Shown here piece after piece: positions 3,760-22,304 of a stretch of DNA of 64,000 bases (position 1 is the stretch's first letter; each line of letters starts with the position of its first letter). Origin of the DNA: Oceanicoccus sagamiensis. GTDB taxonomy: Bacteria > Pseudomonadota > Gammaproteobacteria > Pseudomonadales > Dasaniaceae. Made by a program: the position numbers and the translations under genes. The stretch spans positions 124,001 through 188,000 of the forward strand of contig NZ_CP019343.1 in NCBI RefSeq assembly GCF_002117105.1. Reading direction: 5' to 3'. The notes beneath the pieces are model-generated. The model saw only the letters and a program-made list of their open reading frames with translations. It did not search any database and was not told the DNA's origin.

Positions 3760-3814
3760 AACAATTTCCAGATTCATGTTTTATTTCTTTAAAGGACTAT
3801 CAACCGATAATTGG

Positions 3815-5167: not shown

Positions 5168-5204
5168 ACGGTCTCTTATCGTTTTTGTACTTGATGCGCT
5201 GTTT

Positions 5205-5969: not shown

Positions 5970-6035
5970 ACTTAACTCTACCCTATTGATAATTTTCCCT
6001 CATCGAGTGTATTCACTTGAGACATAATGGCTGGC

Positions 6036-7298: not shown

Positions 7299-7341
7299 AT
7301 TATAGGGATTTAAACACAATGACTGGGGCCATCTTCGGCCA
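7299..7341 (-). promoter_or_regulatory. Shared-motif promoter in front of acyl-CoA dehydrogenase gene
   Basis: Read on the minus strand, TGGCCGAAGATGGC (7341-7328) lies 37 nt upstream of a perfect -10 box TATAAT (7304-7299). The string CTATAATCGA is shared exactly with the GST promoter at 17.55 kb. The motif would cover the -35 region, as class II activator sites do. Confidence 0.6.
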
Positions 7342-7394
7342 GATATAAGGTTTATTAGCTGCCAGTAAGAATATGGGAACGGTGTTACACAGAT

Positions 7395-8297
7395 TTAAAT
7401 CTGTGACGTGATATTCGACAATTGTTCCAGCATCCACTGGTGTCCCGGCGTTGATCCATGGCGCGGGTGCCATAAGATATCAACCTTAAATGCCCCAAGC
7501 CTCATCGGTAAGGGCAAGACCTTTACTGGCAGCAAGTGACAAAAATCGGCGGCAAAACGCTGGGGTAATACCAGCGCCAAATCCGTTTGCGCCACCACCA
7601 TGGCAGCGGTGCTGTAATTTGGCATAACAGAGACAATAGTGCGTTGACGCCCCTGCTCTTCCAGCCAACGATCCACCATGCCGCGCCGTTCATTACTGGA
7701 CACCCACACATGCCCCAAAGCCAGATATTGCTTCAGGGTAATACGCTGCTTGATCTGTGGGTGAGCTTTTCGCACCAGACAACATAGTTGCTCTTCCAGC
7801 CACAGCTTTTGTTTTAGCCTGGAACTGATATCAAAAAAGCGGCCCATAGCAAAATCGAATTCACCGGACTCCAGTGCGGCCTCAGGGTTTTCCGAACCAA
7901 AATTTTTGATGCGAACTTTAACCCCAGGGGCCTCACGTTCAAGCAGCCTGAGTAAACGCGGCATTAATAACTGAGCCACATAATCCGTCGCGGCAATCAC
8001 AAAAGACTGCTTGCTGCTGGCCGGGTCAAAGCTGGCGGGTTTAAGCAGACACTGGTCCAGTTCCATTAATGCCTGTTGTACCGGTGCAGAAATTTCCAGC
8101 GCCCGGGTTGTGGGCTCCATACCCTGCCGGGTACGCACCAGTAGCGGATCATCCAGCATCTCGCGCAATCGGCCAAGGGCATTGCTTACCGCAGGCTGTG
8201 TCAGGGACAGGGTCTGGGCGGCTTTGGATACACTGCGCTCACGCATCACTGCATCAAACACCACCAGTAAATTCAGGTCGAGTTTTCTTATATTCAT
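7395..8297 (-). CDS. LysR family transcriptional regulator
   Basis: The start at 8297 gives about 300 residues beginning MNIRKLDLNLLVVFDAVM, the standard LysR N-terminus; a longer in-frame start at 8375 would add 26 residues with no family support. The winged helix-turn-helix (SVSKAAQTLSLTQPAVSNALGRLRE) spans about residues 20-45 and the rest is the substrate-binding domain. It diverges from the iron alcohol dehydrogenase gene across about 93 bases, the usual arrangement for a LysR regulator and its target. Autoregulation from the shared intergenic region is inferred. The effector is unknown. Confidence 0.9.
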   Translation of the reverse strand: MNIRKLDLNLLVVFDAVMRERSVSKAAQTLSLTQPAVSNALGRLREMLDDPLLVRTRQGMEPTTRALEISAPVQQALMELDQCLLKPASFDPASSKQSFVIAATDYVAQLLMPRLLRLLEREAPGVKVRIKNFGSENPEAALESGEFDFAMGRFFDISSRLKQKLWLEEQLCCLVRKAHPQIKQRITLKQYLALGHVWVSSNERRGMVDRWLEEQGRQRTIVSVMPNYSTAAMVVAQTDLALVLPQRFAADFCHLLPVKVLPLPMRLGAFKVDILWHPRHGSTPGHQWMLEQLSNITSQI

Positions 8298-8390
8298 GGT
8301 TTGAATAGGCCGATTACAGATATAAATTATCAATATACAACTAATACAAGGAAAATACAGGGCTTTGTCACCCAAGATGCAAGAGCAATA

Positions 8391-9544
8391 ATGAATAGTT
8401 TTACCTTTACCACCAGCAAATGCATTATCAATGAACCCGGAGCCCTGGCACGCATTGGTGAGATCTGCCGCAACCAGGGTATCAGCCGCCCATTGATTGT
8501 GACTGACCCGGGTATTGTCAGTATTGGCCTGCTGGACAAACTGGAAGCAGCCCTTAAAGCGGCGGCTATGCCCTACAGTTGTTTTACCGATATTGTTGCC
8601 GACCCACCAGAGTCCATTGTGTTAGCAGCATTGGCACAAGCCAACAGAGAGCAGGTCGATGCGGTGATAGGATTTGGCGGCGGTAGTTCGATGGATACCG
8701 CCAAGCTGGTTGCCCTGATGGCCCGGTCCGGTGAAACCCTGCAACAGATTTACGGTGTTGACCAGGCCAAAGGCCAGCGCCTGCCCCTGATCCAGATCCC
8801 CACCACCGCCGGTACCGGTTCAGAGGTGACCGCGGTCGCTATTGTCACCACCGGTGAAACCACCAAAACTGGCGTGGTTGCCCCACAATTACTGCCCGAT
8901 ATTGCGTTGCTGGATGCCGAGCTGACGGTGGGCCTGCCGCCTGCGATTACCGCCGCCACGGGCATTGATGCCATGGTGCACGCCATTGAGGCCTATACCA
9001 GTGTGCATAAAAAGAATAGCTACTCCGATATGCTGGCCCGCCAGGCCCTGCAACTGATGGCCAGTCATATTGAGCAGGCCACCCATAATGGCACTGATCT
9101 TAAAGCTCGCCAGGGGATGCTGCTAGGCGCCTGCCTTGCAGGCCAGGCATTTGCTAATGCACCGGTGGCAGCCGTTCACGCTCTGGCTTACCCGCTGGGG
9201 GGCATTTCCATATTCCCCACGGTTTAAGTAATTCCCTGGTACTGCCACATGTGTTGCGCTTTAACGCCGAAGCCGCCTGTGAACAATACGCCGAATTAGC
9301 CGATGTAATACCGGGTATTAATAGCCAGGGGGGTGCGTTACAGAAAACCCACCAACTGATTCACTATCTGGAAGCGCTAATCACCAGGCTGAATCTTCCC
9401 ACACGCCTGCGCGATAGGGATATCGACCAGAAAGACCTGCCTATGCTGGCCAGTGATGCCATGCTGCAACAACGCCTGCTGATTAATAACCCGCGGGCAG
9501 TTTCCGAAACCGACGCTCTGGCAATTTACCAGGCGGCCTATTAA
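8391..9544 (+). pseudogene. Iron-containing alcohol dehydrogenase, broken by a one-base frameshift
   Basis: The gene starts at ATG 8391 (MNSFTFTTSK). The first frame reads GFGGGSSMDTAK and TTAGTGSE, the NAD- and metal-site motifs of group III Fe-ADHs, and DAMVHAIEAYT. It then stops at 9227. The second frame (to 9544) carries the rest, HGLSNSLVLPHVLRFN to AIYQAAY. The shift is in the G run 9197-9202: six G are present where seven would give LGGHFHIPHG and a normal protein of about 384 residues. The truncated product lacks the last iron-binding His. Family members include 4-hydroxybutyrate and lactaldehyde dehydrogenases. A neighbouring succinate-semialdehyde dehydrogenase remnant suggests a 4-hydroxybutyrate-type route, now decayed. 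A sequencing error is also possible. Confidence 0.85.
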
Positions 9545-9563
9545 TTCACCGAGAGAACTGACT

Positions 9564-9995
9564 ATGTCTGACTTACCCACACGCGATCACTATCGCTGGT
9601 TTTTGCCGATTAGTACCCGCTGGATGGATAACGATATCTACGGCCATATTAATAATGTGCACTATTACTCTTACTTTGACACCGTGGCCAATACCTACCT
9701 GATTGAGGAGGCGGGACTGGACATCCATCATGGCGATATTATCGGCTATATCGTTAACTCCCAGTGCAGTTATAAAAAAGCTATTGCCTTTCCTGAGAAA
9801 ATCGCAGGCGGTTTTCGTGTAAACCGTTTAGGCAATAGCTCGGTGGAATACGGTATAGCAATATTTAAAAACGACGAAAGTGATTGCTGTGCCTTTGGCA
9901 CCTTTACCCACGTGTTTGTGGACCGTAAAACCGAAAAACCGGTGCCTATTCCCGAACCCATGCGAACTGCACTGGCGTCCATGCTGGTCAACTAA
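9564..9995 (+). CDS. Acyl-CoA thioesterase (4HBT hotdog family)
   Basis: The 143-residue protein reads RWMDNDIYGHINNVHYYSYFDT in its first third, the D-x-x-x-H-x-N-N active-site pattern of 4-hydroxybenzoyl-CoA-thioesterase-like hotdog proteins, with the Asp as the expected catalytic residue. Its length is typical for the family. It would release a free acid from an acyl-CoA in the cytoplasm. It starts 19 bases behind the iron alcohol dehydrogenase frame, behind a GAGAG-type ribosome site, and appears intact although the genes on both sides are broken. Confidence 0.88.
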   Translation: MSDLPTRDHYRWFLPISTRWMDNDIYGHINNVHYYSYFDTVANTYLIEEAGLDIHHGDIIGYIVNSQCSYKKAIAFPEKIAGGFRVNRLGNSSVEYGIAIFKNDESDCCAFGTFTHVFVDRKTEKPVPIPEPMRTALASMLVN

Positions 9996-10037
9996 ACCCT
10001 GACGAAACAGCCAGTCGACGAAGCAAAGAGAAACTTC

Positions 10038-10221
10038 ATGCAACTGAACAACCCCGCGCTAATGTGCAGCCAATCCTATATTAACGGCCAGTGGATAGAC
10101 AGCGACAACGGTACCCACGTAGACGCACTCAACCCGGCTACAGGGTATCGGTAAAATTTTACGTATGGGTGAAGCGCTGGAATACGATATAGTCGGTATT
10201 AACCAAGGTATTATCTCTAAT
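10038..10221 (+). pseudogene. Aldehyde dehydrogenase remnant with large internal deletion
   Basis: ATG 10038 opens MQLNNPALMCSQSYINGQW and NPATG, the N-terminus of succinate-semialdehyde dehydrogenase (GabD)-type enzymes, and stops at TAA 10152-10154. In another frame the following bases read GIGKILRMGEALEYDIVGIN then QGIIS, which matches the C-terminal region RVAEALEYG-VGIN-GIIS of the same family. About 400 codons between these two ends are gone and the junction, near 10144, is out of frame. The two ends still have good similarity, so the deletion looks fairly recent. The neighbouring alcohol dehydrogenase is also broken, so a two-step alcohol-to-acid route seems lost here. Confidence 0.8.
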
Positions 10222-10248
10222 GATAGAGAGCGAACAGGAGAACAATCC

Positions 10249-11265
10249 ATGCCGGACAACAATGTTCGACTCAGTGTTTATAAGCAACTGATACTGGAAT
10301 TGAACGAGGCTGGCGTCAGTGAAGAGCAGCTGCATAAAGAGGCTGAACCCTTGATAGCGGCACTACCTGCCAGCTCTTCGGAACAAGCTGCCGCTCTTGA
10401 GGGCATGCTGCGGATGGAAACCGCTGTCAAACTCAGCGGCGACGATAGCCTGTTTTTAAAAGTGGGCCAACAGGTAGGCATTGACAGTTATGGCACCTTA
10501 GGTTTCGCTTTAATGAGCTGTGCCAATTTAAGGGAGGCCATTACACTACTGCTGCGCTATGCCAAGCTGTTTTTCCAACCCATCTGGACGCCTTATAAAA
10601 CTGACGGAGGCTTGCTACTGCGTTTAAATTTGGAGACAGGCTCCCCCAAACAACAGCAAGTATTTACCGAGCTGGCTTTCTCAATGTTGTCAAAAACATC
10701 CAGTGCACTTTATCGAGGACGGGTGGAAGGCGCTGAAATTCACCTGGCCTATCCCGCCCCGGCTCATAAGGCCTATTACCAGAAAGCCATTCTGGCGGAG
10801 ATCAGTTTTAATCGGGAATTTAGCCAACTGTATGTTCCAGACAGTGCTCTGGACATTCCGGTAAGAACGGCCAATATTTCTGAACATATTGTATTTCAAC
10901 AACAGTGTGAAGAAATGCTGCGAAGCTTAAACGAGGTGGGAGAAACCACCTCAGCGCTAAGACGAGTGTTGATTCAGTCCGCCGGTGATTTTCCCGATAT
11001 CACCCAGGTTGCCGAGCACCTTCATGTCAGCGAGCGCACGTTAAGACGTCGACTTAAAAATGAGGCCACCAGCTTTCGAGATATTTTAGATGAGATCAGA
11101 AATCTATTGGCCCGGGAGTATTTGGTAAAAACCTCCCTGACCGTGGCCGAGATCGCACATCTTTTAGATTTTAGCGAAGCCGTTCATTTTCGCCGAGCCT
11201 TTGTACGCTGGAATACTATTACCCCCGGCGACTATCGCCAAACGCAAACCCCTGAACAACAATAA
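10249..11265 (+). CDS. AraC family transcriptional regulator with arabinose-binding-type N-terminal domain
   Basis: The start at ATG 10249 (MPDNNVRLSVYKQL) is set by a GGAG at 10237-10240. An upstream in-frame ATG at 10165 belongs to the aldehyde dehydrogenase remnant. The protein has about 338 residues. The N-terminal two thirds look like the ArgR/OruR-type sensing domain (YGTLGFALMSCANLREAITLLLRY). The C-terminal AraC domain carries two helix-turn-helices (ITQVAEHLHVSERTLRRRLK; SLTVAEIAHLLDFSEAVHFR). It is a candidate activator for the shared motif found upstream of seven genes in this region, since those sites overlap the expected -35 position; this link is inference. Confidence 0.9.
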   Translation: MPDNNVRLSVYKQLILELNEAGVSEEQLHKEAEPLIAALPASSSEQAAALEGMLRMETAVKLSGDDSLFLKVGQQVGIDSYGTLGFALMSCANLREAITLLLRYAKLFFQPIWTPYKTDGGLLLRLNLETGSPKQQQVFTELAFSMLSKTSSALYRGRVEGAEIHLAYPAPAHKAYYQKAILAEISFNREFSQLYVPDSALDIPVRTANISEHIVFQQQCEEMLRSLNEVGETTSALRRVLIQSAGDFPDITQVAEHLHVSERTLRRRLKNEATSFRDILDEIRNLLAREYLVKTSLTVAEIAHLLDFSEAVHFRRAFVRWNTITPGDYRQTQTPEQQ

Positions 11266-11289
11266 GCCAGAGACTTCACCCTGCCAATA

Positions 11290-11321
11290 TCGCTTTAATC
11301 AGCCATGGTGCTGATAAGCGA
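11290..11321. terminator. Hairpin between convergent araC-type and MFS genes
   Basis: TCGCTT (11290-11295) plus ATCAGC (11298-11303) pair with GCTGAT (11310-11315) plus AAGCGA (11316-11321), leaving a two-base bulge and a six-base loop. It sits in the 60-base gap between two convergent genes. There is no clear T run, so it is only a possible bidirectional terminator. Confidence 0.4.
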
Positions 11322-11325
11322 GTGG

Positions 11326-12621
11326 TTAAACCTGTTGAGTCTGTTGTTGAATCTGTTGTTGAGCCTGTTGTTTTGCCAGCGCCCGACCACATAGCCATAC
11401 ATGGACAGAACCCCATAAACCCAGCAGCGAAAAATAAGCCAACGCCACGCCGAGGGAACCCTCGCCATAGTGGGGTTCCAGCAAGTCACTGAGAAGGCCC
11501 ACCAATATCGGCCCCAGCCCCATACCCACCAGGTTAATTAATAGCATTTTAATCGCCGAAGCCACCCCGCGCATATTGACTGGCGACAGGGTTTGTAACA
11601 TCGCCAGCATCGGCCCCATAGCATAGTTGGCGGCAAAGCCCGGAAGAATAAAAAACGCGATAGCAGTGGTAATGTCCTCTGCCAGCAGCCCCATAATAAA
11701 AAAGGGTATGGTAAAAAATGGCACCACCGCCAGCACCCACATACCATACTGGAAACCGCGAACGGCCAGCCGATCAAATACCTTACCGGCCAGCAGTGCG
11801 CCGATGGCTCCGGAAATACCAAACACCAGGGCCATCAACAGCCCCGTCTGTGACTGGCTAAGCTCATGGGTGCGGATAAAAAATGTCGGCATCCATGAGG
11901 TCAGACCATAAGAAATTAATCCGACTATCATGGAAGCGGCAACCAGGTGACGCAGTGCCTGGTTATTCCACATCATCACCGCCGTTGTTTTTATCGGCGG
12001 TGGTGGCTCGGGCGTCTGTGTTTCAAACGTGCCCCGCCCCGGTTCTTTAATCCATTTGGCCATCAGCAGCGCCAGCAACAGACCGGGTACTCCAACTGAT
12101 ACCAGAGCCATACGCCAACCGTAGGCCTGGGCAATAAATCCACCACCCACAAAACCGAACATCATCCCGACACTGCCACCGAGCATCAATACCGACATCG
12201 CAAACCCCCGGCGATGGGGAGGAAAATAATCGGCAATCAGGGACTGGCTGGCGGGGCCTACTCCGGCCTCACCAATACCGACACCTATACGAAATAACAA
12301 CAGGCTGATAAAGCCGGCCGCCGTACCGCCGAGTGCAGTCATCATCGAGAAAATCACAATACTGGCGATAATAATGCGCTTGCGACTGTATTGGTCCGAA
12401 AGCCTGGCAATAGGCAGCCCCAGGGTCGCGTAAAACAGGGCAAAAGAAAGACCGCCCAACAGGCCCAGTTGCAGATCCGTTAAATCAAACTCCGCTTTAA
12501 TATCCGGGAACAGAATCGACAGAATCATGCGGTCGCAAATCGACAAGGCATAGGCCAGCATCATCAGAGTCAATAAACGGCGGTGCCCCGGTAACGGCTG
12601 GCTGGCTGTCGGTTGATTCAT
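11326..12621 (-). CDS. MFS transporter, spinster-like
   Basis: The 431-residue protein has about twelve membrane segments. The loop RLSDQYSRKRII is the MFS signature between segments 2 and 3. GVGIGEAGVGPASQSLIADYFP is the signature of the spinster-like branch often found next to steroid, terpene and aromatic catabolic genes. A substrate importer or exporter for the surrounding pathway is likely; the substrate is not known. The last 20 or so residues are almost only Gln with Ala, Thr and Ile, encoded by a degenerate CTGTTG-type repeat at about 11326-11378. This looks like slippage-derived sequence rather than a conserved domain. Confidence 0.88.
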   Translation of the reverse strand: MNQPTASQPLPGHRRLLTLMMLAYALSICDRMILSILFPDIKAEFDLTDLQLGLLGGLSFALFYATLGLPIARLSDQYSRKRIIIASIVIFSMMTALGGTAAGFISLLLFRIGVGIGEAGVGPASQSLIADYFPPHRRGFAMSVLMLGGSVGMMFGFVGGGFIAQAYGWRMALVSVGVPGLLLALLMAKWIKEPGRGTFETQTPEPPPPIKTTAVMMWNNQALRHLVAASMIVGLISYGLTSWMPTFFIRTHELSQSQTGLLMALVFGISGAIGALLAGKVFDRLAVRGFQYGMWVLAVVPFFTIPFFIMGLLAEDITTAIAFFILPGFAANYAMGPMLAMLQTLSPVNMRGVASAIKMLLINLVGMGLGPILVGLLSDLLEPHYGEGSLGVALAYFSLLGLWGSVHVWLCGRALAKQQAQQQIQQQTQQV

Positions 12622-12711
12622 AGTGAGTCCTGTTTATTGCGGGATTATTGTGAGACGGTGCTGTCAGCGGCCTGGCCGCCAGTACACCATCCCGTACTGA
12701 CAATCAAAGCC

Positions 12712-12733
12712 GGTGGATTACAATCCACCCTAC
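12712..12733. repeat. Palindromic GGTGGATT repeat, copy B, supplying a stop codon
   Basis: The unit GGTGGATTnnAATCCACC followed by CTAC spans 12712-12733. On the minus strand its GTAGGG end contributes the TAG stop (12732-12730) of the DUF2147-like gene. It is a solo unit; a possible half-unit (GGTGGAATCC) lies inside the gene's last codons at 12742-12751. Confidence 0.8.
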
Positions 12734-13143
12734 TCTTGTGCGGTGGAATCCGCAGGCAGCCATTCTACTGTTCGGCTAAAAAAACCCACCTTGCCTGTGA
12801 GCTGCATCGTGCCACTGTCGGAGAGGGTAATTTCCACCGTTTTGAATGCTTCCAGTTTGTGGATATAGGCAAGACCCGTCCAGGCGTCCTGTTTCGCTGT
12901 AATCTCCTTGATAAAAACCTGCCCTTCCCGCTCCGGGAATTTGTTATTGCGAACGACAATACCTTCACCCTGGTCCAGCCGAATCTCAATCCAGACCGGC
13001 ATCTCGGCATGCTTCCAGGTACCGGCAATATCGGTGGCTGTTGCTTTGCTACTGGCTATAGAAGCAAGCGATAACACCCATAATAGAAAAACCGTTTGGA
13101 TGCTTTTCCCGACAGCATGCCGGTGATAAAAATTATTGCTCAT
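12730..13143 (-). CDS. DUF2147-like secreted small protein
   Basis: The 137-residue protein has an N-terminal signal or membrane segment (VFLLWVLSLASIASS). It is followed by AGTWKHAEMPVWIEI and, near the end, LTGKVGFFSRTVEW, which resemble the GxWK start and the G-GF--R-x-x-W end of DUF2147 periplasmic proteins. The assignment rests on pattern only. It overlaps the sulfatase stop by 11 bases (13133-13143), so the two are translated in a coupled way. The stop codon comes from a palindromic repeat. It is probably the last gene of the PfpI-membrane protein-sulfatase operon. Confidence 0.65.
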   Translation of the reverse strand: MSNNFYHRHAVGKSIQTVFLLWVLSLASIASSKATATDIAGTWKHAEMPVWIEIRLDQGEGIVVRNNKFPEREGQVFIKEITAKQDAWTGLAYIHKLEAFKTVEITLSDSGTMQLTGKVGFFSRTVEWLPADSTAQE

Positions 13144-14971
13144 CAGTCGATACCTTTTTCATTCGCCAGGCCACATAAAAGGGCAATAGCAGCAACACCG
13201 TCAACAGCAACACCAGGATACCGTCTCGATTGGTTAACAGACCATTCTGAACCAGTTGTTTAATCTGGGTATAACCTGGCGGCACGGGCACCACTTTATT
13301 ATCCACGGTGTATTGATGATAGGCCGACAGCATACGCTGGAAACGCACTGTGTCAGCCCCGGATAAATCCTTAGTCTCACCCGGGTCGGTGACAATATTA
13401 AATAAACGCCATTGACCATCTCCACGGGGCGGCTGGTTAACCACCAGCTTATAGTCACCCTGAAATAACACACCGTGGTCGGTCAGCTCGTAACCCACGG
13501 GATCATCAGGGCCATAAACCCTTGCAGCGGAGGCAGAAAGCAAGGGTGTTAGATCCCGGCCAGTCATCGGCAGTATCGGGCGTCCCGCAAAGCGATCCCC
13601 GGGTGCTGCTACACCGCTTAGTGACAAAATGGTTGGCGTAATATCGGTGGCCCAGGCAAAGGCCCTGGTCAGTGACGACGGATCGGCAACCGGTTTACCG
13701 CTAATAATCAGGGGCACACGCATACCGCCTTCACCGGCATGGAATTTATAGTAAGCCAATGGACTGACAGCGGCGCTGGAAAAGCTGGGACCTATGGTAC
13801 CGTAGCTGCCTTTAAGGCCAAGGGTTTCGTAGTCAACGTTATAACCGAGACTGTGTGGGCCCAATCGCTGTGGAAACCCTCGCGGATCATCGGGGCCATT
13901 GGCTTCACTGCCATTATCCGAGGTAAAAATAAAAATCGTATTATCGTATTGACCGCGCTGTTTAAGAAACTCAACCAGCCGGCCAATATGGAAATCCATG
14001 GCCTCAATCATGCCGGCATAAACCGCCATACGTTTTGACTGGTAGCGCCGGTCCTCATCACTAAGTGCATCCCAGTCTATGGTGGTATGCATTCTTACCA
14101 TGGGTGTATTTTCTGGAACAATACCCAGCGCTTCTGCCCGTTCCTTACGCTGCTCACGCAGCACATCCCAGCCGGAATCATAGACACCCATATAGCGGTC
14201 GATATAGTGTTGCGGAGCCTGTACAGGGGAATGCACTGCCATAAAAGGGAGATAGGCAAAGAAGGGTTTTTCATCCTGTAAATTGCTGTCGATAAACTCA
14301 ATCATTTTATCGACTAAAAAACGCGAAGAATAAAAATCTTCCGGCAGCGTATAACGCTCACCATCAGCAAACCAGTTAGCCTGGTCATACAGTGGAAGAT
14401 AAGGACGCTGCTCCCAATTATCGGCACCTGAATCCATCATTGCCATGGTACGCTGAAAACCACGTCGACTGGGTCGTTTATCCGGGTCCATGCCCAAATG
14501 CCATTTACCCGCCATATAAGTGTGGTAACCGGCTTCTTCTAACAGTGTTGCCACGGTAACTACATCGCTACCGAGTACACCTTGATAGTTAGCGTGCTTG
14601 CGTTGCTCGGGCGCTAACATTTCAGGAATATTGGGAACCCCGGCCAGATGGCTATCCACGCCGGTGAGCAACATAGCCCTGGCAGGCGCGCAATTGGCGG
14701 CGGTGTGGAAGTTGGTAAAGCTGACACCCTGCTCCGCCAATGCCGTTAGAGAGGGTGTATTGACTTCACTGCCATAGGACGCGATATCGGTATAACCCAG
14801 ATCATCGGCGAGGATAAAAACGATGTTGGGACGTACTCTATATGCAGAACTCTGCGCCTCAGTGTCTACAACGGTATTCGCTGATGCTTCAATCCCAAAC
14901 ACGCTGCTACTCACAACGCTTAAACACAGGCATGCGCCACAAAAAATCTGAGGTAAAGAAAAACGTCTCAC
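13133..14971 (-). CDS. Sulfatase (arylsulfatase-like, Cys-type)
   Basis: The GTG at 14971 begins four bases behind the upstream gene's stop and gives a 612-residue protein with a clean signal peptide (VRRFSLPQIFCGACLCLSVV). An ATG at 15007 is in frame but overlaps the preceding gene by 32 bases. NIVFILADDLGYTD holds the metal Asp pair (about 56-57). NCAPARAMLLTG holds Cys94 in the C-x-P-x-R motif that is converted to formylglycine. A transmembrane helix (ILVLLLTVLLLLPFYVAW) with a short basic tail closes the protein, so it is probably anchored in the inner membrane and faces the periplasm. It would hydrolyse a sulfate ester; the substrate is unknown. No formylglycine-generating enzyme is adjacent. 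Confidence 0.88.
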   Translation of the reverse strand: MRRFSLPQIFCGACLCLSVVSSSVFGIEASANTVVDTEAQSSAYRVRPNIVFILADDLGYTDIASYGSEVNTPSLTALAEQGVSFTNFHTAANCAPARAMLLTGVDSHLAGVPNIPEMLAPEQRKHANYQGVLGSDVVTVATLLEEAGYHTYMAGKWHLGMDPDKRPSRRGFQRTMAMMDSGADNWEQRPYLPLYDQANWFADGERYTLPEDFYSSRFLVDKMIEFIDSNLQDEKPFFAYLPFMAVHSPVQAPQHYIDRYMGVYDSGWDVLREQRKERAEALGIVPENTPMVRMHTTIDWDALSDEDRRYQSKRMAVYAGMIEAMDFHIGRLVEFLKQRGQYDNTIFIFTSDNGSEANGPDDPRGFPQRLGPHSLGYNVDYETLGLKGSYGTIGPSFSSAAVSPLAYYKFHAGEGGMRVPLIISGKPVADPSSLTRAFAWATDITPTILSLSGVAAPGDRFAGRPILPMTGRDLTPLLSASAARVYGPDDPVGYELTDHGVLFQGDYKLVVNQPPRGDGQWRLFNIVTDPGETKDLSGADTVRFQRMLSAYHQYTVDNKVVPVPPGYTQIKQLVQNGLLTNRDGILVLLLTVLLLLPFYVAWRMKKVSTDEQ

Positions 14972-14975
14972 TGGT

Positions 14976-15367
14976 TCAGCCTTGTTTTGGCAAGCGGCGG
15001 GATGCAAGCAGCAAAATAATGGCCACGACCACTTCTGTCATGATCTGACTAACGGCCAATGTGGCATCGTGCAACAGCCAGGCGACAATTCGCCCCAAGG
15101 CTGTGATCGCCAGTAACATCATGGGGGGTAGTACCAGCTTCGATGCCCACTGATCAGGGCGATCAACATACAACTGCCCAGCACCAGAAAGAAGCCAGCC
15201 ATATTACCGATTTGGGAGCTGAGTCCGAGGCCGTCACTCAGCGTCAGGCCAAAGTTAGGTGCTACGCCAGCCGGTGCCACCAGCCAGCGAACCCCCATAA
15301 CCACAAACAGAATCGCAGGTATCAGTACCAATAACTTTACAATAATACTGATTGGGCTCACCTTCAT
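14976..15367 (-). pseudogene. DUF4345-like membrane protein, one-base frameshift
   Basis: The frame from ATG 15367 reads MKVSPISIIVKLLVLIPAI and WLVAPAGVAPNFGLTL and ends HRSWYYPP at a stop at 15119. The adjacent frame continues MMLLAITALGRIVAWLLHD to LLLASRRLPKQG (stop 14976). Joined, they make one small four-helix membrane protein of about 130 residues. The shift lies in the G run 15123-15128 (six present, seven needed). The gene begins two bases behind the PfpI-like gene and ends four bases before the sulfatase start, so it is an operon member. It may be intact in the cell if the lost G is a sequencing error. The family name is a tentative match. Confidence 0.75.
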
Positions 15368-15369
15368 TT

Positions 15370-16224
15370 TTATTGATCCCTTTCGGCAATGACTTGCATC
15401 ATTTTGTGTGCCGTCTCCAACCCTGAGTTTTGGTTCTGGCCGGTCACAAATCGCCTCTCTTGATCAATCACCACATGGGTAGCAAACACATCACGGAAAG
15501 CCGTTTGGCTTTCGTAAAGCGCACCGGCTTTACGCAGTTCGGTTTCCGGGTGTTGCGGGGTAATTTCAATCTTTAGCTCTTTAATTTGCTTGTCACTAAC
15601 CCCGGTCATGGCTCGTCCAGCGATCAGCAAATTGCCCTGAGTGTCTTTTACATTGATAAAACCCAACACTCCGTGACATACGCCGCCGAGAACAGGTTTG
15701 TGTTCCGCATAAAAGGCGTCGCCAATTTTCTGTGCCAGAATGTCTGAGTAACCCAGATCATAGGCTGCACCCCATCCACCGGCGAGAAAGATCAGGTCGT
15801 ACTCGCTGAAATCGACATCATCAATTTTTATTGACTTCTGAGCTTTCGCGGTAAAAACAGGATCGGCAAGGAAACGCTCATCGAGAGGGCTTATCGACAC
15901 TCGACCAAGGCTATCAGGGGCGATAGGAATTTCACCGCCTTTAATACTGGCTACATCGACCGACATACCGCCGTCTAAAAACGTGTAATAAGGGTGTGTC
16001 ATTTCAGATGCGGCAACACCGGTAGCCGGACCCTCGGTTTCACCCGGCGCCGCCAATACGCTATGACTGGTGGTAATAATCAGTGCACGCTTACCCGCCA
16101 GTTCAAATTCAGGGCCATGATACTCAGGGTGCAACCCCAACTTGTGCACCAAGGTCGGTAACGCCAGTACAACGATGACGGCAAATGCGACAAGGGCAGC
16201 CAAAACTTTCATTATTTTGCTCAT
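15370..16224 (-). CDS. DJ-1/PfpI family protein (Hsp31-like glutamine amidotransferase fold)
   Basis: The 284-residue protein starts with one membrane segment (about 6-25, VLAALVAFAVIVVLALP), so it is membrane-anchored or exported. The DJ-1/PfpI domain follows, with the nucleophile elbow GGVCHGVLGF (Cys183, His184) and Glu74 in SEMTHPYY, the catalytic arrangement of the Hsp31/glyoxalase III-like group. Glyoxalase, deglycase or chaperone roles are known in this family; which applies here is open. It is the first gene of an operon continuing into the membrane protein, sulfatase and DUF2147-like genes. A copy of the shared upstream motif lies 71 bases before its start. Confidence 0.87.
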   Translation of the reverse strand: MSKIMKVLAALVAFAVIVVLALPTLVHKLGLHPEYHGPEFELAGKRALIITTSHSVLAAPGETEGPATGVAASEMTHPYYTFLDGGMSVDVASIKGGEIPIAPDSLGRVSISPLDERFLADPVFTAKAQKSIKIDDVDFSEYDLIFLAGGWGAAYDLGYSDILAQKIGDAFYAEHKPVLGGVCHGVLGFINVKDTQGNLLIAGRAMTGVSDKQIKELKIEITPQHPETELRKAGALYESQTAFRDVFATHVVIDQERRFVTGQNQNSGLETAHKMMQVIAERDQ

Positions 16225-16264
16225 GGATTCAAATCTCTCTGTACATTTATTTCAAATATTTCAA

Positions 16265-16308
16265 ATTTTATTCCGCCGCCAATGCCCCTGGCGTATCATT
16301 TCCGGACA
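16265..16308 (-). promoter_or_regulatory. Shared-motif promoter of the PfpI-sulfatase operon
   Basis: On the minus strand TGTCCGGAAATGAT (16308-16295) lies 38 nt before a -10-like TAAAAT (16270-16265), and the PfpI-like gene starts at 16224. The match to the shared consensus TGrCCGAawATGAT is 12 of 14. Confidence 0.55.
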
Positions 16309-16433
16309 AATGGCGTATTAAGCCATATCCATAACTCTGGCTTCGGCCTTGAGAAGGGAGTTAGTCAACGCCCTCTCTCTGATCGTTACCAGCACGCAGT
16401 AATCTGGCCCGCGACAAAGGCCGGCCTATGGAT

Positions 16434-17489
16434 TTAATGCGGTGCCAGCAAAGCCTCACAGCCGGTTCCGGTTATCAATCGATCAACGCGCTGCTTATCG
16501 CTTTGCGATAAATTCTGGTATTCCTCATTAATCCACTGAAGACACTTACCCTGATAAGGGAAGCTTTGCTGGGACCATAAGCCACCATCGATCTCTGTTT
16601 GCCATTGCTTCTCACCGGCTTGCAGCGCTTTGGCGTTAGCCAGTAAGGCGGGGACATAAGTTCTGCCGATTTCTGTAAGTATGTTCTTCAATGTTGCAGG
16701 AACGGTTTCCAACGAGGTCCAGTTTTTTTCCTCAGATTCCAGTCCACTCTGATCTTCCAGTGTACTCACCCAGGCGATGGTACGAGGCGAGACTTTATGG
16801 GCAATAGCTCGGGGGGTAGGGTCAAAACCGATAAGCTGGCTAAGCTGACCAAACAAGGCAAAGTCTCCAGAACCCGGCTTATCGCCAAGCAAGAAAGGCT
16901 GGTTCTTGAAGTGCTCTTCCAGTAGCGACAGCAAGCGACGATAACTGGCATCTATAATGGGGGCTGTGGTGTCGTTGGAACCCACATAACCCAGGCGTCC
17001 AGTCTGACGGTCAGCAAAAAACGTTTTCACTTGCTGCAAGGCTTCTTCTCCCATCGTAACATCCATAATCAAAGGGAGCTGGGTGCCAGCGTTGTCGGCA
17101 TCTTCAGAAAAATACCAGCGATAGTGGAACATAAATTTTGTACACCATTCGTCGCCGAAATCCTCCAGCAGAAAATTGATAAACGCCAGCGCAGGATCAT
17201 CGGGAATCACCGAGCGAGGTGTAAAAAGCTTCTCCAGACGGTGAATGATCGGGGTGGAATCGCAAACGGCTTCACTCTCACCGCTATCATCTTTGAAGAT
17301 AAAGGTAGGCAAAAAAGTGATTTTGGGTTTGCTAATACCTAAACCATCCAGCGCCGCTGCCGGATCTGCCCATATCATGGCATGCGGAATACGGCGATAT
17401 CTCAGCAGTGATAACATTTTTCGCGTATAGGGTGATCCAGTAGCGCCAATAAGACGCAGAGGGTTGTCTGTGGTATACGTTGTTGACAC
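16434..17489 (-). CDS. Glutathione S-transferase family protein
   Basis: The 351-residue protein has an N-terminal thioredoxin-like GST domain (RLIGATGSPYTRKMLSLLRYR, with SPYTRK at the glutathione site), then an insert and a C-terminal helical domain (GDKPGSGDFALFGQLSQL). It is longer than ordinary GSTs (about 210 residues), like the GST-fold proteins found in marine catabolic clusters. Glutathione conjugation or isomerisation of a cluster intermediate is inferred. It diverges from the LCAD-type gene across a 320-base region, and both promoters carry the shared motif. Confidence 0.82.
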   Translation of the reverse strand: MSTTYTTDNPLRLIGATGSPYTRKMLSLLRYRRIPHAMIWADPAAALDGLGISKPKITFLPTFIFKDDSGESEAVCDSTPIIHRLEKLFTPRSVIPDDPALAFINFLLEDFGDEWCTKFMFHYRWYFSEDADNAGTQLPLIMDVTMGEEALQQVKTFFADRQTGRLGYVGSNDTTAPIIDASYRRLLSLLEEHFKNQPFLLGDKPGSGDFALFGQLSQLIGFDPTPRAIAHKVSPRTIAWVSTLEDQSGLESEEKNWTSLETVPATLKNILTEIGRTYVPALLANAKALQAGEKQWQTEIDGGLWSQQSFPYQGKCLQWINEEYQNLSQSDKQRVDRLITGTGCEALLAPH

Positions 17490-17553
17490 GGTACATTCCT
17501 TATTAATTTTGTTAGCTGGTGGAATAGACTCAATTTAACCGGCTGGTAAATCG

Positions 17554-17596
17554 ATTATAGTGAGTGCCGGCCACCTTACGGGATCATTTTCGGCCA
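17554..17596 (-). promoter_or_regulatory. Shared-motif promoter of the GST gene
   Basis: On the minus strand TGGCCGAAAATGAT (17596-17583), the best consensus copy, lies exactly 37 nt before TATAAT (17559-17554). The -10 context CTATAATCGA is the same as at the acyl-CoA dehydrogenase promoter near 7.3 kb. Confidence 0.65.
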
Positions 17597-17638
17597 ACCT
17601 CGTTTTGTTAGCCGTAATTTCATTTCTGGACAGGCTAC

Positions 17639-17683
17639 TGGCCGATAATGATTCCAGTGACTTATCGAAGAGCTGATTACATT
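17639..17683 (+). promoter_or_regulatory. Shared-motif promoter of the LCAD-type gene
   Basis: TGGCCGATAATGAT at 17639-17652, followed by TCCA, points toward the acyl-CoA dehydrogenase at 17810. The best -10 candidate is TACATT (17678-17683), 39 nt downstream of the first T. The motif is strong; the -10 call is weak. Confidence 0.5.
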
Positions 17684-17809
17684 ACGTTTTAAAATAGTAA
17701 AACTGTCTCAACTATGATGAAATTTCTTAAACGACAGTTCCCGCTGTTAGCCTCACCGCAAACAACGACTAACGCCAAACTTACCTGACAAGCTATCCTG
17801 GAGTTCCCC

Positions 17810-18946
17810 ATGGACAATGAAGAATTAACCCTGTTCCGCGATATGGCGCGCCGCGCTTTCGAGCAGGAAATCCAACCCCATTATGAAAGCTGGGAAGAAC
17901 AGCATATTGTGCCGCGCGAGTTGTGGAACACACTGGGCGCTGCAGGCCTGCTATGCCCGGATATGCCGGAGGAATACGGCGGCGCAGGCACATCACCTCA
18001 TGTGTGTCTGGCCATGATGGAGGAAATGTCACGGATGGGCTTTGGCGGATTGACCACTGGTTACAGTATTCACAGTAATATCGTCGCGCCCTATATTAAT
18101 CACTTTGGCACCGAGGACCAGAAGCAACAGTGGCTGCCCGGCATGGTCACCGGTGACATTGTGGGCGCACTGGCTATGACCGAGCCCGGCGCCGGCTCCG
18201 ACGTACAGGGCATTCGCACCACAGCCGTACGCGATGGTGACGAGTGGGTACTTAACGGCTCCAAGATTTTTATTACCAACGGTATCCACGCTGACCTGGT
18301 GATTGTTGCGGCGCTTACCGACCCCGGCAAAGGCGCCAAGGGCACCTCGCTATTTCTGGTGGATGCTTCCCTGCCCGGCTTTGAAAAAGGCAATAAGATC
18401 GAAAAGATTGGCCAGCATACCTCCGACACGGCGGAATTATTTTTCCAGGATGTACGCTTGCCCACTAACGCGCTGCTTGGCGAAGAAAACAAGGGCTTCG
18501 CCATTATGATGCAAGAGCTGCCGCGGGAACGTCTGGGTATTGCCGCCCAGGCTATAGCCGCTGCTGAAGGTGCTATGGATATCACTGTCGAGTACGTTAT
18601 GGAGCGTAAGGCCTTTGGCCAGACGGTGGCGTCTTTCCAGAACACCCGCTTTACCCTGGCGGAAGTCAAAACCGAAATCGCACTCAACCGGGCACTGTAC
18701 GAGAAGTGTGCCGACCAGTACGCCCGCAATGAGTTGACCGTTGACGATGCGGCGATGCTTAAGTACGCCAGTACGGAAATGCAGTGCAGTACCATTGACC
18801 AGTGCCTGCAATTGTTTGGCGGCTACGGCTATACCGCCGAGTACCCAATCTCGCGCTACTATACCGATGCCCGTATCCAGCGTATCTACGGTGGAACTTC
18901 TGAGATTATGCGCGAGCTGGTAGCGCGCTCTATCCTCGGCCGCTGA
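17810..18946 (+). CDS. Long-chain-type acyl-CoA dehydrogenase
   Basis: The 378-residue flavoprotein has the ACAD signatures ALAMTEPGAGSDVQGIRT and YGGTSEIMRELVARSIL. The usual MCAD-type catalytic Glu in YEGT is Gly here. QELPRERLGIAAQA (Glu240) matches the long-chain (LCAD) and isovaleryl-CoA dehydrogenase position for the catalytic base. It would introduce the alpha,beta double bond in a long or branched acyl-CoA. The start at 17810 is supported by a CCTGGAG ribosome site at 17799-17805. Its stop overlaps the convergent DUF1145 gene by 17 bases. Regulation by the shared motif is inferred. Confidence 0.9.
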   Translation: MDNEELTLFRDMARRAFEQEIQPHYESWEEQHIVPRELWNTLGAAGLLCPDMPEEYGGAGTSPHVCLAMMEEMSRMGFGGLTTGYSIHSNIVAPYINHFGTEDQKQQWLPGMVTGDIVGALAMTEPGAGSDVQGIRTTAVRDGDEWVLNGSKIFITNGIHADLVIVAALTDPGKGAKGTSLFLVDASLPGFEKGNKIEKIGQHTSDTAELFFQDVRLPTNALLGEENKGFAIMMQELPRERLGIAAQAIAAAEGAMDITVEYVMERKAFGQTVASFQNTRFTLAEVKTEIALNRALYEKCADQYARNELTVDDAAMLKYASTEMQCSTIDQCLQLFGGYGYTAEYPISRYYTDARIQRIYGGTSEIMRELVARSILGR

Positions 18947-19205
18947 TCCTGATCGTCTTCAACTGCAAGGCACCAAACAACATCGTTAACAAGTAATCCC
19001 CGGGGCCGCGCATTCTTTTATGAAACAGTAGAATCTCAATCATATGAGAAACCACCAGAAAAACACCGAGCCACTGAAACGCCTGTGGAAATGGCACCAG
19101 CAAAGGCTCTATCACAGAGACCAGAATAAGCAACCAAACTATAGAGACAATAACCTTTAAAATTTTTAAGCGTTGAATGGCATGCATCATAAGTGCTTTT
19201 CTCAA
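18930..19205 (-). CDS. DUF1145 family small membrane protein
   Basis: The 91-residue protein has two to three hydrophobic helices (VIVSIVWLLILVSVIEPLL and WLGVFLVVSHMIEILLF) followed by a polar C-terminus. This matches the size and the HMIE motif of DUF1145 inner-membrane proteins, whose function is unknown. A start at MMHAI (19190) is equally possible. It converges on the acyl-CoA dehydrogenase gene with a 17-base overlap and has its own copy of the shared promoter motif. Confidence 0.7.
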   Translation of the reverse strand: MRKALMMHAIQRLKILKVIVSIVWLLILVSVIEPLLVPFPQAFQWLGVFLVVSHMIEILLFHKRMRGPGDYLLTMLFGALQLKTIRISGRG

Positions 19206-19276
19206 TTATCGTGCTATGAGTTTGGCTAATCATTTCAGCGACTGAATAAACTTTATGTTAAACCGCCAGTCAATCG

Positions 19277-19319
19277 ATTGTAGCGAACGTTGAAGACAGG
19301 ACAGAACCCTTCTCGGCCA
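19277..19319 (-). promoter_or_regulatory. Shared-motif promoter of the DUF1145 gene
   Basis: On the minus strand TGGCCGAGAAGGGT (19319-19306) lies 37 nt before TACAAT (19282-19277), whose context CTACAATCGATT matches the GST promoter context CTATAATCGATT. Confidence 0.5.
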
Positions 19320-19375
19320 TTCGGATTGATCTTGACAAAACCCCAGCAGCAAACAGTTAGCCTACAGGAATAAGC

Positions 19376-19419
19376 TGACCGAATATGATTCCATAATACG
19401 GTTTTCACCACTCTATATT
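19376..19419 (+). promoter_or_regulatory. Shared-motif promoter of the SDR gene at 19487
   Basis: TGACCGAATATGAT (19376-19389), followed by TCCA, lies 38 nt before TATATT (19414-19419). The SDR gene begins 68 bases further on. Confidence 0.55.
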
Positions 19420-19486
19420 CGCTCATCACAATCACCAACTCTAATGATGACCTGCCTGCATTATTGAATATCGGAGTGCCTGCTAA

Positions 19487-20362
19487 ATGAAACGTATTGT
19501 TATTACCGGAGCCGCCAGTGGCTTGGGGCTTGCCCTGGCGAAAAAATATGCCAGTGAAGGCTGGTCTGTTTGTCTTGCTGATATTCAGGATAAAGAGGGA
19601 ATCAGGATTGCCTCGCAACTAAGTGCCATCTATAGCAACGATTGTTTTTTCCAACACCTGGATATCACCAGTGATGCCCAGTGGCAGGAGCTGGTGGCTA
19701 TCATTACTGAGCGATGGCAAGGGCTGGATGCCTTAGTCAATAATGCCGGTGTGGCTGCGGCCGGCGATATCGATACTTTTTCGCTAAAAGACTTTCAGTG
19801 GGCTTTGGATATCAATTTAATGGGGGCTGTAAAAGGCTGCCACGCCTGCGTGCCACTCTTAAAAGAAACTAAAGGCTTTCTTATCAATGTAGCGTCTATG
19901 GCTGGGCTATTACATATGGGGTCGATGTCTGCCTATAACGTCTCAAAAGCAGGCATGGTCGCCCTGTCGGAAGGTTTGCTGAGTGAACTTGATCCTTATG
20001 AGGTAAACGTGTCTGTGGTATGCCCGACTTTCTTTCAAAGCAATCTGGCCAAGAGTATGCGCAGCGACAACCCCAAAGCGGCCAAAATAGCGGCCAAGCT
20101 ACACGCCAAAACAGGGATTACCGCAGACAGTATTGCGACAACCGTTTACGACAATGCCCAAAAGGGTAAGCACTATATCCTTGCAGGGACTCGACTTAGC
20201 GACAGAATCATGTGGCGGATAAAGCGTTATCTTCCCCCCGTCTATCTCAATATGATGAAAAGCAATGCGCGGTTACAGTATGCTGATAAATACCCTTCTT
20301 CAGCCAAGGAAGGATTATCCGCACGCGTGGGGCGTTTTATAAGAAGCAAGGTATTAGACTAA
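19487..20362 (+). CDS. SDR family oxidoreductase
   Basis: The 291-residue classical short-chain dehydrogenase has the nucleotide-binding motif TGAASGLG (7-14), NNAG (85-88), Ser137, and the Tyr150-x-x-x-Lys154 pair in YNVSK. A basic C-terminal stretch (SDRIMWRIKRYLPPVYLNMM) extends beyond the core fold, as in SDRs acting on lipophilic substrates near membranes. The substrate is unknown. It stands alone on the plus strand behind a shared-motif promoter and converges with the second GST-like gene. Confidence 0.88.
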   Translation: MKRIVITGAASGLGLALAKKYASEGWSVCLADIQDKEGIRIASQLSAIYSNDCFFQHLDITSDAQWQELVAIITERWQGLDALVNNAGVAAAGDIDTFSLKDFQWALDINLMGAVKGCHACVPLLKETKGFLINVASMAGLLHMGSMSAYNVSKAGMVALSEGLLSELDPYEVNVSVVCPTFFQSNLAKSMRSDNPKAAKIAAKLHAKTGITADSIATTVYDNAQKGKHYILAGTRLSDRIMWRIKRYLPPVYLNMMKSNARLQYADKYPSSAKEGLSARVGRFIRSKVLD

Positions 20363-20525
20363 GACGCCAATGGCCTAACCGGGGAAGCCATGAATATTTC
20401 CTGGCTTGCTTCGCTTTGAACCGGCCAGATATGCAGCGTCAGCTCAAGCTGATACATTGAACAGTCAGTTTCTAAATGGTTTTTTAAACTGCTTTCTTCA
20501 TTAGGGTGCGAGCTGTTTGCTGATG

Positions 20526-21443
20526 CTATGCGATAGAATATCCGGACCTCGGGAAGTGAACGTGTAAGCGCCCAAATTGAGAGGTGTCGCGGGCGAGAAT
20601 AATACGATTTGAGTTAATCGATACTAACTCGCCATTGACGGGAATGACTGCATAGTCCTCGGGTGAGACACTGACAGATTGCCCCACCTTGAAACTGTCA
20701 TGATCCTCGCTGCTCGGTACTGCCCGTGGTGATGTCCTACTGGCTAATTCGAAGGCTTCAGCTTGTGTTATTTCTTCTCTCGGGCCCTGGCCAATTGCGC
20801 TCACGGAACTGTACCACCGTTGCACATTCGGGCCCGCGGCGAGTGGCTTCCTATTAAAACTGACGTGCAGCCACAACACGTGATAAACGCTGAAGTCAGC
20901 CAGAGAAGGTAAGTCCCCGGCTATCCAGGTCGAGTGATTTAAATGTGATTCTAAATCATCGATTAAAGCTGCGAGAATATGTTGAGCTTTTTTCGGATGT
21001 ACGCCTTTCTTAGTCCCCCCCTCCAGCATACCCTTGCGGTCTTTAATAAAGGGGATAATTTGCAGGAGACCAAGTTTCATCCACATGGTAGTTAGCAATC
21101 GCAATGGGGGTACCGCGGCTATTGCAGAGAAAAAAGCCTCTTGCTCTGCGCGATTCACTAGCTCGAGTGCTCTTCCTTCAAGGTTTTGAGGCTGCAGTTT
21201 CTGATTGCTGGTTATTTCCGCGACCTCTTCTGCGATCAAGGCGGTATCACAGATAATATCTGCCCCCAGCTGCAAAACCGGAATACGCCGGTAGCCACCG
21301 GTTAAGGGATCCAGATTGGGTCTGGGTGGCCTTGCCGGTGAGGGTAGCGACTTCCATGGTGTATTGGTTAAACCGAACATGAGTCTAATTTTTTCTGCAT
21401 AGGGTGAAGCGTCGTAGTGATGCAAAATGATCGGTGTGGACAC
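20526..21443 (-). CDS. Glutathione S-transferase family protein
   Basis: The 305-residue protein opens IILHHYDASPYAEKIRLMFGLTNTPW, a GST N-terminal thioredoxin domain with SPYAEK at the glutathione site. A C-terminal helical domain (WIAGDLPSLADFSVYHVLWL) follows. The last 80 or so residues (SVSPEDYAVIPVNGELVSINSNRIILAR) form an extra beta-rich tail not found in ordinary GSTs. It is related in architecture to the GST at 16.4 kb. A motif copy and a -10 box lie just upstream. Confidence 0.82.
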   Translation of the reverse strand: MSTPIILHHYDASPYAEKIRLMFGLTNTPWKSLPSPARPPRPNLDPLTGGYRRIPVLQLGADIICDTALIAEEVAEITSNQKLQPQNLEGRALELVNRAEQEAFFSAIAAVPPLRLLTTMWMKLGLLQIIPFIKDRKGMLEGGTKKGVHPKKAQHILAALIDDLESHLNHSTWIAGDLPSLADFSVYHVLWLHVSFNRKPLAAGPNVQRWYSSVSAIGQGPREEITQAEAFELASRTSPRAVPSSEDHDSFKVGQSVSVSPEDYAVIPVNGELVSINSNRIILARDTSQFGRLHVHFPRSGYSIA

Positions 21444-22062
21444 AGATTCTGCTCCTTCTGTTCTATCGGGTTATCTCTATTATGCTTGCTTTCGAATATA
21501 CCACGCTATGATTGGATTCGGTCATAAATACAGTCACAATTAGGTAACAGCTCAAGGTCATAACCACCCTCTCAACCTCATTCAGCACCGAACTTTCAAA
21601 CCGGACATATGCGTAGCTTTTACTTTGTACTATCTGACAATGAAGTGACCTTAGAATCCCAAGGACCATTTTCTCTACCCTGAGAGAAATAGCCTCTCAC
21701 TAGAATCTCTATATTATTCTTATTCGACTACTTCAATATCATTGGACTATAAACGTATTCTAACAACAAGCACTACAAGACACCCCCAACTTTATTGTAC
21801 CTACAAGTAAGTTGTACCCATACCGAGCTCAACATCCCCCCCTAAAAAACACTCTCAGAAGAAAATCTCGAAAAATGATAATTCTGTGCGCCTCACGCGC
21901 GCCGTATACAGCAATTTTCCGAGAAAAAGACCTCCGTGTTTTAATTTTCTGCCTTTTCCTGTTCATGCCTGAAAATTCTGACAATACTCCCCTTAACCAA
22001 TTATTTTTAAAAGTTAAAACGGTGTATTTGAACAAATGTAAAAAATCAAACAAGGGTAAAAG
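21444..22062. other. AT-rich gene-free left flank of the integrative element
   Basis: These 619 bases hold the GST promoter at the left end. An imperfect inverted repeat spans about 21867-21924 (TCTCGAAAAAT against ATTTTCCGAGA, around a GTGCGCCTCACGCGCGCC core) some 140 bases before the AlpA-type gene; it could be a regulator or recombinase binding region. The octamer TACCTACA at 21798-21805 recurs beside the integrase start at 23756-23763. An 84-codon frame at 21812-22066 has no family support and was not called. Confidence 0.5.
21479..21524 (-). promoter_or_regulatory. Shared-motif promoter of the second GST-like gene
   Basis: On the minus strand TGACCGAATCCAAT (21524-21511) shares the nine bases TGACCGAAT with the SDR promoter. 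A CATAAT -10 candidate (21484-21479) lies 40 nt downstream. This is the weakest copy in its distal half. Confidence 0.4.
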
Positions 22063-22269: not shown

Positions 22270-22304
22270 GAAAGATAAAACGAGCTCTATTTACCGCTAT
22301 CAAA

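Follow-up and report, generated by a model that had tools for sequence, protein, structure and literature searches.

The window analysed here is a stretch of 64,000 nt from Oceanicoccus sagamiensis (NZ_CP019343.1, genome positions 124001-188000; the genome, a single contig of 4,472,079 bases or 4.47 Mb, was searched in full). Its first part carries metabolic and regulatory genes preceded by copies of one oriented 17-bp motif, TGRCCGAAWATGATYCC, which we describe as the putative operator of a regulator of the AraC/XylS family. A preliminary description of the window had pointed to seven shorter strings sharing an orientation and a spacing to the -10 box; all seven occur at the positions and in the orientations claimed, and extending each by 3 bases gave the 17-mer. 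Genes are open reading frames (ORFs) from a simple caller, with uncertain start positions, and their families were assigned by Pfam; coordinates are those of the window unless given as genome positions.

On the minus strand, the site TGGCCGAAGATGGCCCC (7325..7341) precedes a putative operon (1900..7247, minus strand) encoding an acyl-CoA dehydrogenase (ACAD; 6036-7247), a short-chain dehydrogenase/reductase (SDR; 5205-5969), a DsbA-like protein (3815-5167) and a DUF3604 protein (1900-3777). A second minus-strand site, TGTCCGGAAATGATACG (16292..16308), lies ahead of another putative operon (11326..16224, minus strand), running from a PfpI gene (15370-16224) through an 82-aa ORF (15119-15367), a sulfatase gene (13133-15007) and a 137-aa ORF (12730-13143) to a major facilitator superfamily (MFS) carrier (11326-12621). 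Two sites lie back to back at 17.6 kb: TGGCCGAAAATGATCCC (17580..17596, minus strand) upstream of a gene for a glutathione S-transferase (GST)-like protein (16434..17489, minus strand), and TGGCCGATAATGATTCC (17639..17655, plus strand), beyond which an acyl-CoA dehydrogenase gene is found (17810..18946, plus strand). A weaker, probable site, TGGCCGAGAAGGGTTCT (19303..19319, minus strand), precedes a 91-aa ORF (18930..19205, minus strand; called a DUF1145 protein in the preliminary description, from which alone the name comes), and TGACCGAATATGATTCC (19376..19392, plus strand) is followed by an SDR gene (19487..20362, plus strand). Two regulatory genes lie between the first and second sites, encoding a LysR-type protein (7395..8375, minus strand; the only LysR in the block of motif-bearing genes delimited below) and an AraC protein that we call AraC4 (10249..11265, plus strand; start set by alignment with relatives, the called ORF beginning at 10165). 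The surroundings of AraC4 look decayed: an iron-dependent alcohol dehydrogenase gene is broken up between two ORFs (8301-9227 and 9251-9544), and remnants resembling an aldehyde dehydrogenase, recognized by eye, precede the AraC4 start (8301-10250).

When the window was scanned with an independent matrix, derived from 12 sites outside it, five of the seven reported sites came out as its five best hits (scores of 26.7, 26.7, 25.5, 17.3 and 14.6), as compared with best scores of 11.8-17.9 in 20 shuffled windows. Three of these sites are secure by score alone, and the 16.3- and 7.3-kb sites by score and position combined. The 7.3-kb site, which at 14.6 is the window's fifth and falls within the shuffled range, was accepted because a perfect TATAAT accompanies it at offset 37, and the 16.3-kb site because, in addition to its score, a site precedes 4/8 PfpI orthologues in relatives. 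The 19.3-kb site scores 10.2 (ninth in the window) and is retained as probable, because it has a box at 37 and because one of two orthologues of its gene carries a good site (L087, score 21.3; L091 has none). The seventh reported site (21508..21524, minus strand), ahead of a GST-like gene (20526-21443), scores 3.2 and ranks 122 in the window, with no TATAAT-like box visible by eye, and was dropped from the set. The spacing of 37 or 38 nt that had been described was recovered at 37 for the 7.3-kb (TATAAT), minus-strand 17.6-kb (TATAAT) and 19.3-kb (TACAAT) sites and at 38 for the 16.3-kb (TAAAAT) and plus-strand 19.4-kb (TATATT) sites, with the correction that 37 counts to the T of TAyAAT, the preceding C lying at 36. 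At the plus-strand 17.6-kb site neither 37 nor 38 offers a good box, the best one lying at 51.

The window alone contains 50 motif matches with at most 3 mismatches against 29.7 expected (sd 5.7), a number that was reached in none of 100 shuffles. Across the whole genome, TGRCCGAAWATGATYCC with at most 3 mismatches finds 94 matches compared with 82 for a reversed control pattern, and the majority of these are chance matches. With at most 2 mismatches, 14 of the 18 genome matches fall at 86.9-143.4 kb, that is within 57 kb, and the remaining four, elsewhere in the genome, are all within ORFs (the individual ORF check of matches elsewhere covered this class). The motif therefore marks a block of about 57 kb, extending from 37 kb upstream of the window to about 19 kb into it. 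A matrix scan of genome positions 70001-188000 returned 17 good sites (leave-one-out scores of 13.9 to 27.1), and the matrix used for relatives derives from these 17 own-genome sites; 12 of them, which the preliminary description does not include, lie in the 37 kb preceding the window. All 17 have a same-strand ORF ahead of them, 9-295 nt from the called start (78-171 nt in 14/17, and 9, 39 and 295 nt in the rest, the site at genome position 87571 being the one only 9 nt away), and 16 lie outside called ORFs, the 17th (genome position 109963) being within a probable false 5' extension of an AraC gene, AraC3. The sites are thus neither equally common in coding sequence nor found in the wrong orientation, and the shared orientation relative to the gene, proposed for seven promoters, extends to the block. 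Outward-facing pairs of sites occur in five divergent regions (91.8, 99.6, 103.2, 121.6 and 141.6 kb of the genome), although the plus-strand member of the 99.6-kb pair is weak and has no plus-strand gene nearby. One further pair, 109771(+) and 109963(-) (3771 and 3963 of locus L033), faces inward, so that the promoters of AraC3 and of a haemolysin-III-like gene would cross; of this pair, the minus-strand site alone recurs in relatives.

Upstream of the window, the block encodes (in genome kb) AraC1 at 85.6, located behind an 81-aa ORF and downstream of a site; a metallo-hydrolase and a PQQ-propeller protein at 88.6-91.8; two TonB receptors at 92.0 and 100.9; an alpha/beta hydrolase, a flavin monooxygenase and a DUF3604 protein at 95.0-99.5; an MFS carrier at 99.6; AraC2 at 103.4, also downstream of a site; the haemolysin-III-like protein at 109.0; AraC3 at 110.0-111.0, 14 kb before the window; a CoA ligase at 111.3; and an enoyl-CoA hydratase, a GST, a DUF1254/1214 protein, an SDR and two DUF3604 proteins at 113.9-123.8. 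Judged by these families the gene mix is catabolic, and the block most likely serves to degrade a hydrophobic or sulfated organic compound.

Promoter geometry was examined over 78 distinct sites (17 of them own), with near-end sites omitted and identical contexts merged; dropping five similar ones left a thinned set of 73. The best TATAAT-like hexamer between offsets 25 and 51 occurred at 37 in 32/73 and at 38 in 32/73 (64/73 together, own genome and relatives), and in 15/17 of the own-genome sites, the exceptions being those at genome positions 141639 (window 17639) and 87571. With the -10 hexamer set at -12 to -7, the site covers about -50 to -33, such that an oriented operator at a fixed distance from the -10 box overlaps the -35 place, as in class II AraC/XylS promoters. 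Conservation within the 17-mer is found at columns 0-5 and 9-16, forming two boxes that start 10 bp apart, again in line with the two-box class II arrangement. Matches to TTGACA at the -35 place (offset 14) average 1.87/6 compared with 1.56 overall, indicating that there is no consensus -35. A protein bound over the -35 place might instead block the polymerase and repress, since position alone is compatible with both modes and a conserved site before AraC3-clade genes could repress the AraC gene as well; yet the missing hexamer and a -10 spacing fixed to 1 nt are both usual for activator-dependent promoters, and we regard repression as improbable. Nor does the motif look like a promoter element read by a sigma factor: the -10 box is of the sigma-70 type and lies 20-21 nt from the motif end, a distance unsuited to a -35 element.

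The similarity between promoters does not extend beyond these elements, no column outside the 17-mer and the -10 box exceeding 0.28 bits between -45 and +59. This bears on the alternative that there is no regulon, and that promoters were simply duplicated along with their genes. The DUF3604, GST, ACAD and AraC genes are indeed paralogous, but likeness confined to the 17-mer and the -10 box, before target genes from unrelated families, makes that scenario barely credible. Tandem dimer operators were not found as the rule: a second copy of the motif 22 bp upstream (-22) scores above zero in 5/73 sites, so that such operators do occur.

The block encodes four AraC proteins with a PF12625 domain in addition to the LysR protein. 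AraC3 (PF12625, 95.6 bits; HTH_18, 65.1 bits) and AraC4 (94.9 and 70.3 bits) both exceed the curated cut-offs for the N-terminal Arabinose_bd sensor and the C-terminal HTH_18 domain, which places them among AraC/XylS proteins with a PF12625 sensor. Relatives of the AraC3/AraC4 clade were collected as 70 loci fetched by name and through a survey of 390 genomes of the order, of which 16 (own included) have a match at 1e-60. The loci, some of them present in repeat copies, cover the AraC3 clade and more distant genes and total 1,154,506 bases; in them 86 matches reached a matrix score of at least 16, compared with 3, 0, 2, 2, 0 and 2 for six permuted matrices on the same sequence. Of the 20 distinct genes outside this genome that reach 324 bits or more against AraC3 (from 14 genomes), 17 have an opposite-strand site (score of at least 18) 46-116 nt before the match start, and the three without are from metagenome-assembled genomes (MAGs) labelled Henriciella and Geminicoccus. 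The next 27 genes (145-283 bits) have a site in three cases (L114, L155, L157), and 26 weaker genes in none. The counts of 20 and 27 omit same-contig duplicates and five partial matches (L107, L108, L113, L115, L116), four of which have a site just downstream. On a tree of 47 rows chosen from the collected relatives the site labels require 5 changes compared with 15.4 when shuffled, and none of 500 shuffles was as low. The linkage is also visible between genomes: a member of the same genus (G005) has 10 pattern matches, and its three contigs with perfect matches each carry an adjoining AraC of the AraC3/AraC4 clade, while in family f41 the AraC3-bearing genomes G242, G279 and G163 have 8, 5 and 2 pattern matches and nine others 0-2 each.

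This linkage of sites to AraC3-clade genes agrees with the earlier attribution to the AraC/XylS family; the regulator is, with high probability, an AraC protein carrying PF12625. AraC1 and AraC2 are preceded by sites and the LysR protein is encoded in the block, so that one of these, or a sigma factor, could in principle read the motif. Sites were found, however, at 0/19 of the outside relatives of AraC1 and at 1/19 of those of AraC2 (score 17.6), at a threshold of 16, in the best 19 outside loci per search, each of about 4 kb and taken from a much larger number of matches (most only 26-46% identical, which makes them an imperfect control). AraC1 and AraC2 are unlikely as readers, and the whole group of alternatives is very improbable. 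The position of AraC1 and AraC2 downstream of sites, for AraC1 behind the 81-aa ORF, suggests a possible second tier, in which they would form a cascade. Another AraC1-like gene (58% identical; genome 4210602-4211615, plus strand) is found at a great distance from the block, and behind AraC2 is a gene for a 941-aa protein (genome 104555-107380, plus strand) with many DSDGDGVGDNADAFP-type repeats.

AraC4, the AraC at 10.2 kb, had been named as the first candidate. It is a diverged paralogue within the AraC3 clade, is 53% identical to AraC3, lies in the block and keeps the ERTLRRR first helix, and it might be the true regulator or share sites with AraC3. It has no adjoining site, though, its second recognition helix reads EAVHF, its tree branch is 0.60 compared with 0.29 for AraC3, and the neighbouring ORFs look broken by eye; we consider this alternative unlikely. 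On account of the EAVHF helix and the missing site, AraC3 is probably the best candidate and AraC4 the second.

The second recognition helix separates the two groups of relatives: VNF is found in 18/21 site-bearing proteins, whereas none of 25 site-less ones has it (the rows are related and do not amount to 46 independent cases). The three site-bearing proteins without VNF are L088 (VSF), L151 and L157 (both ANF). In L151, from genome G163 and with the helix SDAANF, all three AraC-near sites read GAC, each with a box at 37, and the sole site of L088 reads GTT, compared with the T of the GAT column being kept in 68/73 sites. Within the site-bearing clade, the Henriciella and Geminicoccus proteins have EPSSF at this helix and no adjoining site. 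The Henriciella variants, together with those of G163 and L088, form a test of how the second helix of an AraC protein picks its box. The Henriciella and Geminicoccus genes (L093-L095) come from MAGs labelled as alphaproteobacteria and stand inside a gammaproteobacterial clade, through either transfer or misbinning.

Conservation before orthologues had been proposed as a test of the motif, and was found to be partial: sites recur before several orthologues in relatives, but not before all. Among orthologues at 45% identity or more with 150 nt upstream available (site score 16; the two weak window sites counted as targets), a site precedes 5/9 PQQ-propeller genes, 5/7 orthologues of the DUF3604 gene at genome position 119489, 4/8 PfpI genes and 2/2 CoA ligase genes. 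Orthologues of the MFS carrier at 11326-12621 have their own site in 6/8 cases, while here the gene sits in the run behind the 16.3-kb site. Sites in relatives also precede PQQ dehydrogenases, MFS_2 carriers, acetoacetate-decarboxylase-like proteins, a PF10118 hydrolase, an alpha/beta hydrolase and an acyl-CoA dehydrogenase.

Taken together, these results are best explained by TGRCCGAAWATGATYCC being the operator of an AraC/XylS regulator of the AraC3 clade that activates promoters across the block, a reading to which we assign a probability of about 0.75. The positions, orientation and -10 spacing of the sites support the earlier proposal of one regulon with one oriented operator in class II, XylS-like geometry. 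We infer that the regulator, with a PF12625 sensor domain and two helix-turn-helices (HTHs), binds such that each recognition helix reads one box, TGRCCG or TGATTCC, the boxes lying one helical turn apart. The site, at about -50 to -33, extends by 2-3 bp into the -35 place, where no consensus hexamer is present; the bound protein would thus replace the missing -35 contact and bring sigma-70 polymerase to a standard -10 box. A single regulator could thereby switch on about seventeen promoters, whose predicted targets include the two TonB receptors, the MFS carriers, the PQQ-propeller protein, the flavin monooxygenase, the metallo-hydrolase, the DUF3604 proteins, the CoA ligase, acyl-CoA dehydrogenases, SDRs, GST-like proteins, the sulfatase, and AraC1 and AraC2. 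The inducer would be an intermediate of the compound being degraded.

Several observations weigh against this explanation. First-gene targets have a site before their orthologues in 22/98 cases compared with 7/62 for other genes, which is not significant (p = 0.09); orthologues of the DUF3604 genes at genome positions 97442 and 121765 have one in 1/13 cases each, and those of the GST-like gene (16434..17489) in 0/6. AraC3 relatives account for 32 of the 98 and in no case have an own-strand site, so that autoactivation is not conserved. The tandem dimer sites that XylS would lead one to expect are rare. Helix and box do not always vary together: one of the two L157 sites reads GATTCC, and L086 combines one variant box with an unchanged helix. 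AraC4 and L093-L095 belong to the clade and lack a site; L114, L155 and L157 have one while falling outside the core clade; and a perfect 16-mer occurs in G204, which has no AraC3 relative at 1e-40. The 2 pattern matches of G163 are no higher than the 0-2 of the nine AraC3-less members of f41, and the site rows are mutually related, which makes their counts non-independent.

A similar arrangement is described for XylS, which acts on the Pm promoter of the TOL plasmid through a two-box site, TGCA-N6-GGNTA (PMC4225500, PMC5481539); the promoter-near XylS site shares two bases with the -35 box, an overlap described as essential (PMC4225500). The two systems share an AraC-type protein with two HTHs, a two-box site overlapping -35 and the control of a catabolic pathway (PMC4225500, PMC5481539). 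XylS differs in binding two direct repeats as a dimer, where a single copy is usual here, and the present case has other box sequences, a PF12625 sensor and about seventeen promoters in one block. AraC3 also resembles, by description, APR1 of Acinetobacter venetianus, an AraC/XylS-type regulator of about 335 aa that controls a hydrocarbon gene and requires both HTHs to bind its own and its target promoter; no operator sequence was found in the passages on APR1 that were searched (PMC11784139). The best curated matches of AraC3, nearly full length, are the NCBIfam families QhpR, CypR and GliR, with scores far below their cut-offs (154.7 of 250, 153.4 of 500 and 112.4 of 570 bits, respectively), which rules out identity with any of them. 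Among solved structures, 5chh_A (AraC family) is a distant profile match over residues 69-332 (E = 2.7e-26). No description of this regulon was found among the open-licence papers listed in the searches; a block-wide class II AraC regulon with a well-supported regulator clade appears ordinary in kind, and a new case within that literature.

A block of uncharacterised marine catabolic genes can now be assigned an operator of 17 bp, together with a promoter geometry and a clade of regulators. This would allow the inducer, and through it the substrate, to be sought with a single reporter strain. Several genes of unknown function are tied to one switch, and DUF3604 gains a pathway context; the open-licence search for this domain returned one paper, on a Chlamydia transposon. 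DUF3604 itself does not mark the regulon: of its 10 matches in the genome, five fall inside the block and five outside it, compared with none in 14 control genomes.

The block has an integrase at one edge and a patchy presence in the genus. A tyrosine integrase with an arm-DNA-binding domain (22381..23658, minus strand) follows the last site, and the PQQ-propeller gene is found in 2/7 genus genomes (own, G000, and G005), the same two that have AraC3-clade genes and sites. No tRNA was found in the window or the 54 kb preceding it, and no sharp edge in GC content was seen by eye at the integrase. It is possible that the block is an acquired island with the integrase as its edge. More tentatively, AraC3, its operator and the block may together make up a catabolic regulon complete in itself, which has been passed between Spongiibacteraceae, Halieaceae (OM60/NOR5), SAR92 and alphaproteobacteria, in the last of these with an altered helix. 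In this reading DUF3604 proteins would be central enzymes of a degradation pathway not yet described, and the second helix and box B would have changed in step, yielding a natural series of specificity variants. Between the last site and the integrase, a short ORF (about 22062-22270, plus strand) resembles, by eye, an AlpA-type excisionase, and the gene beyond the integrase likewise resembles mutS.

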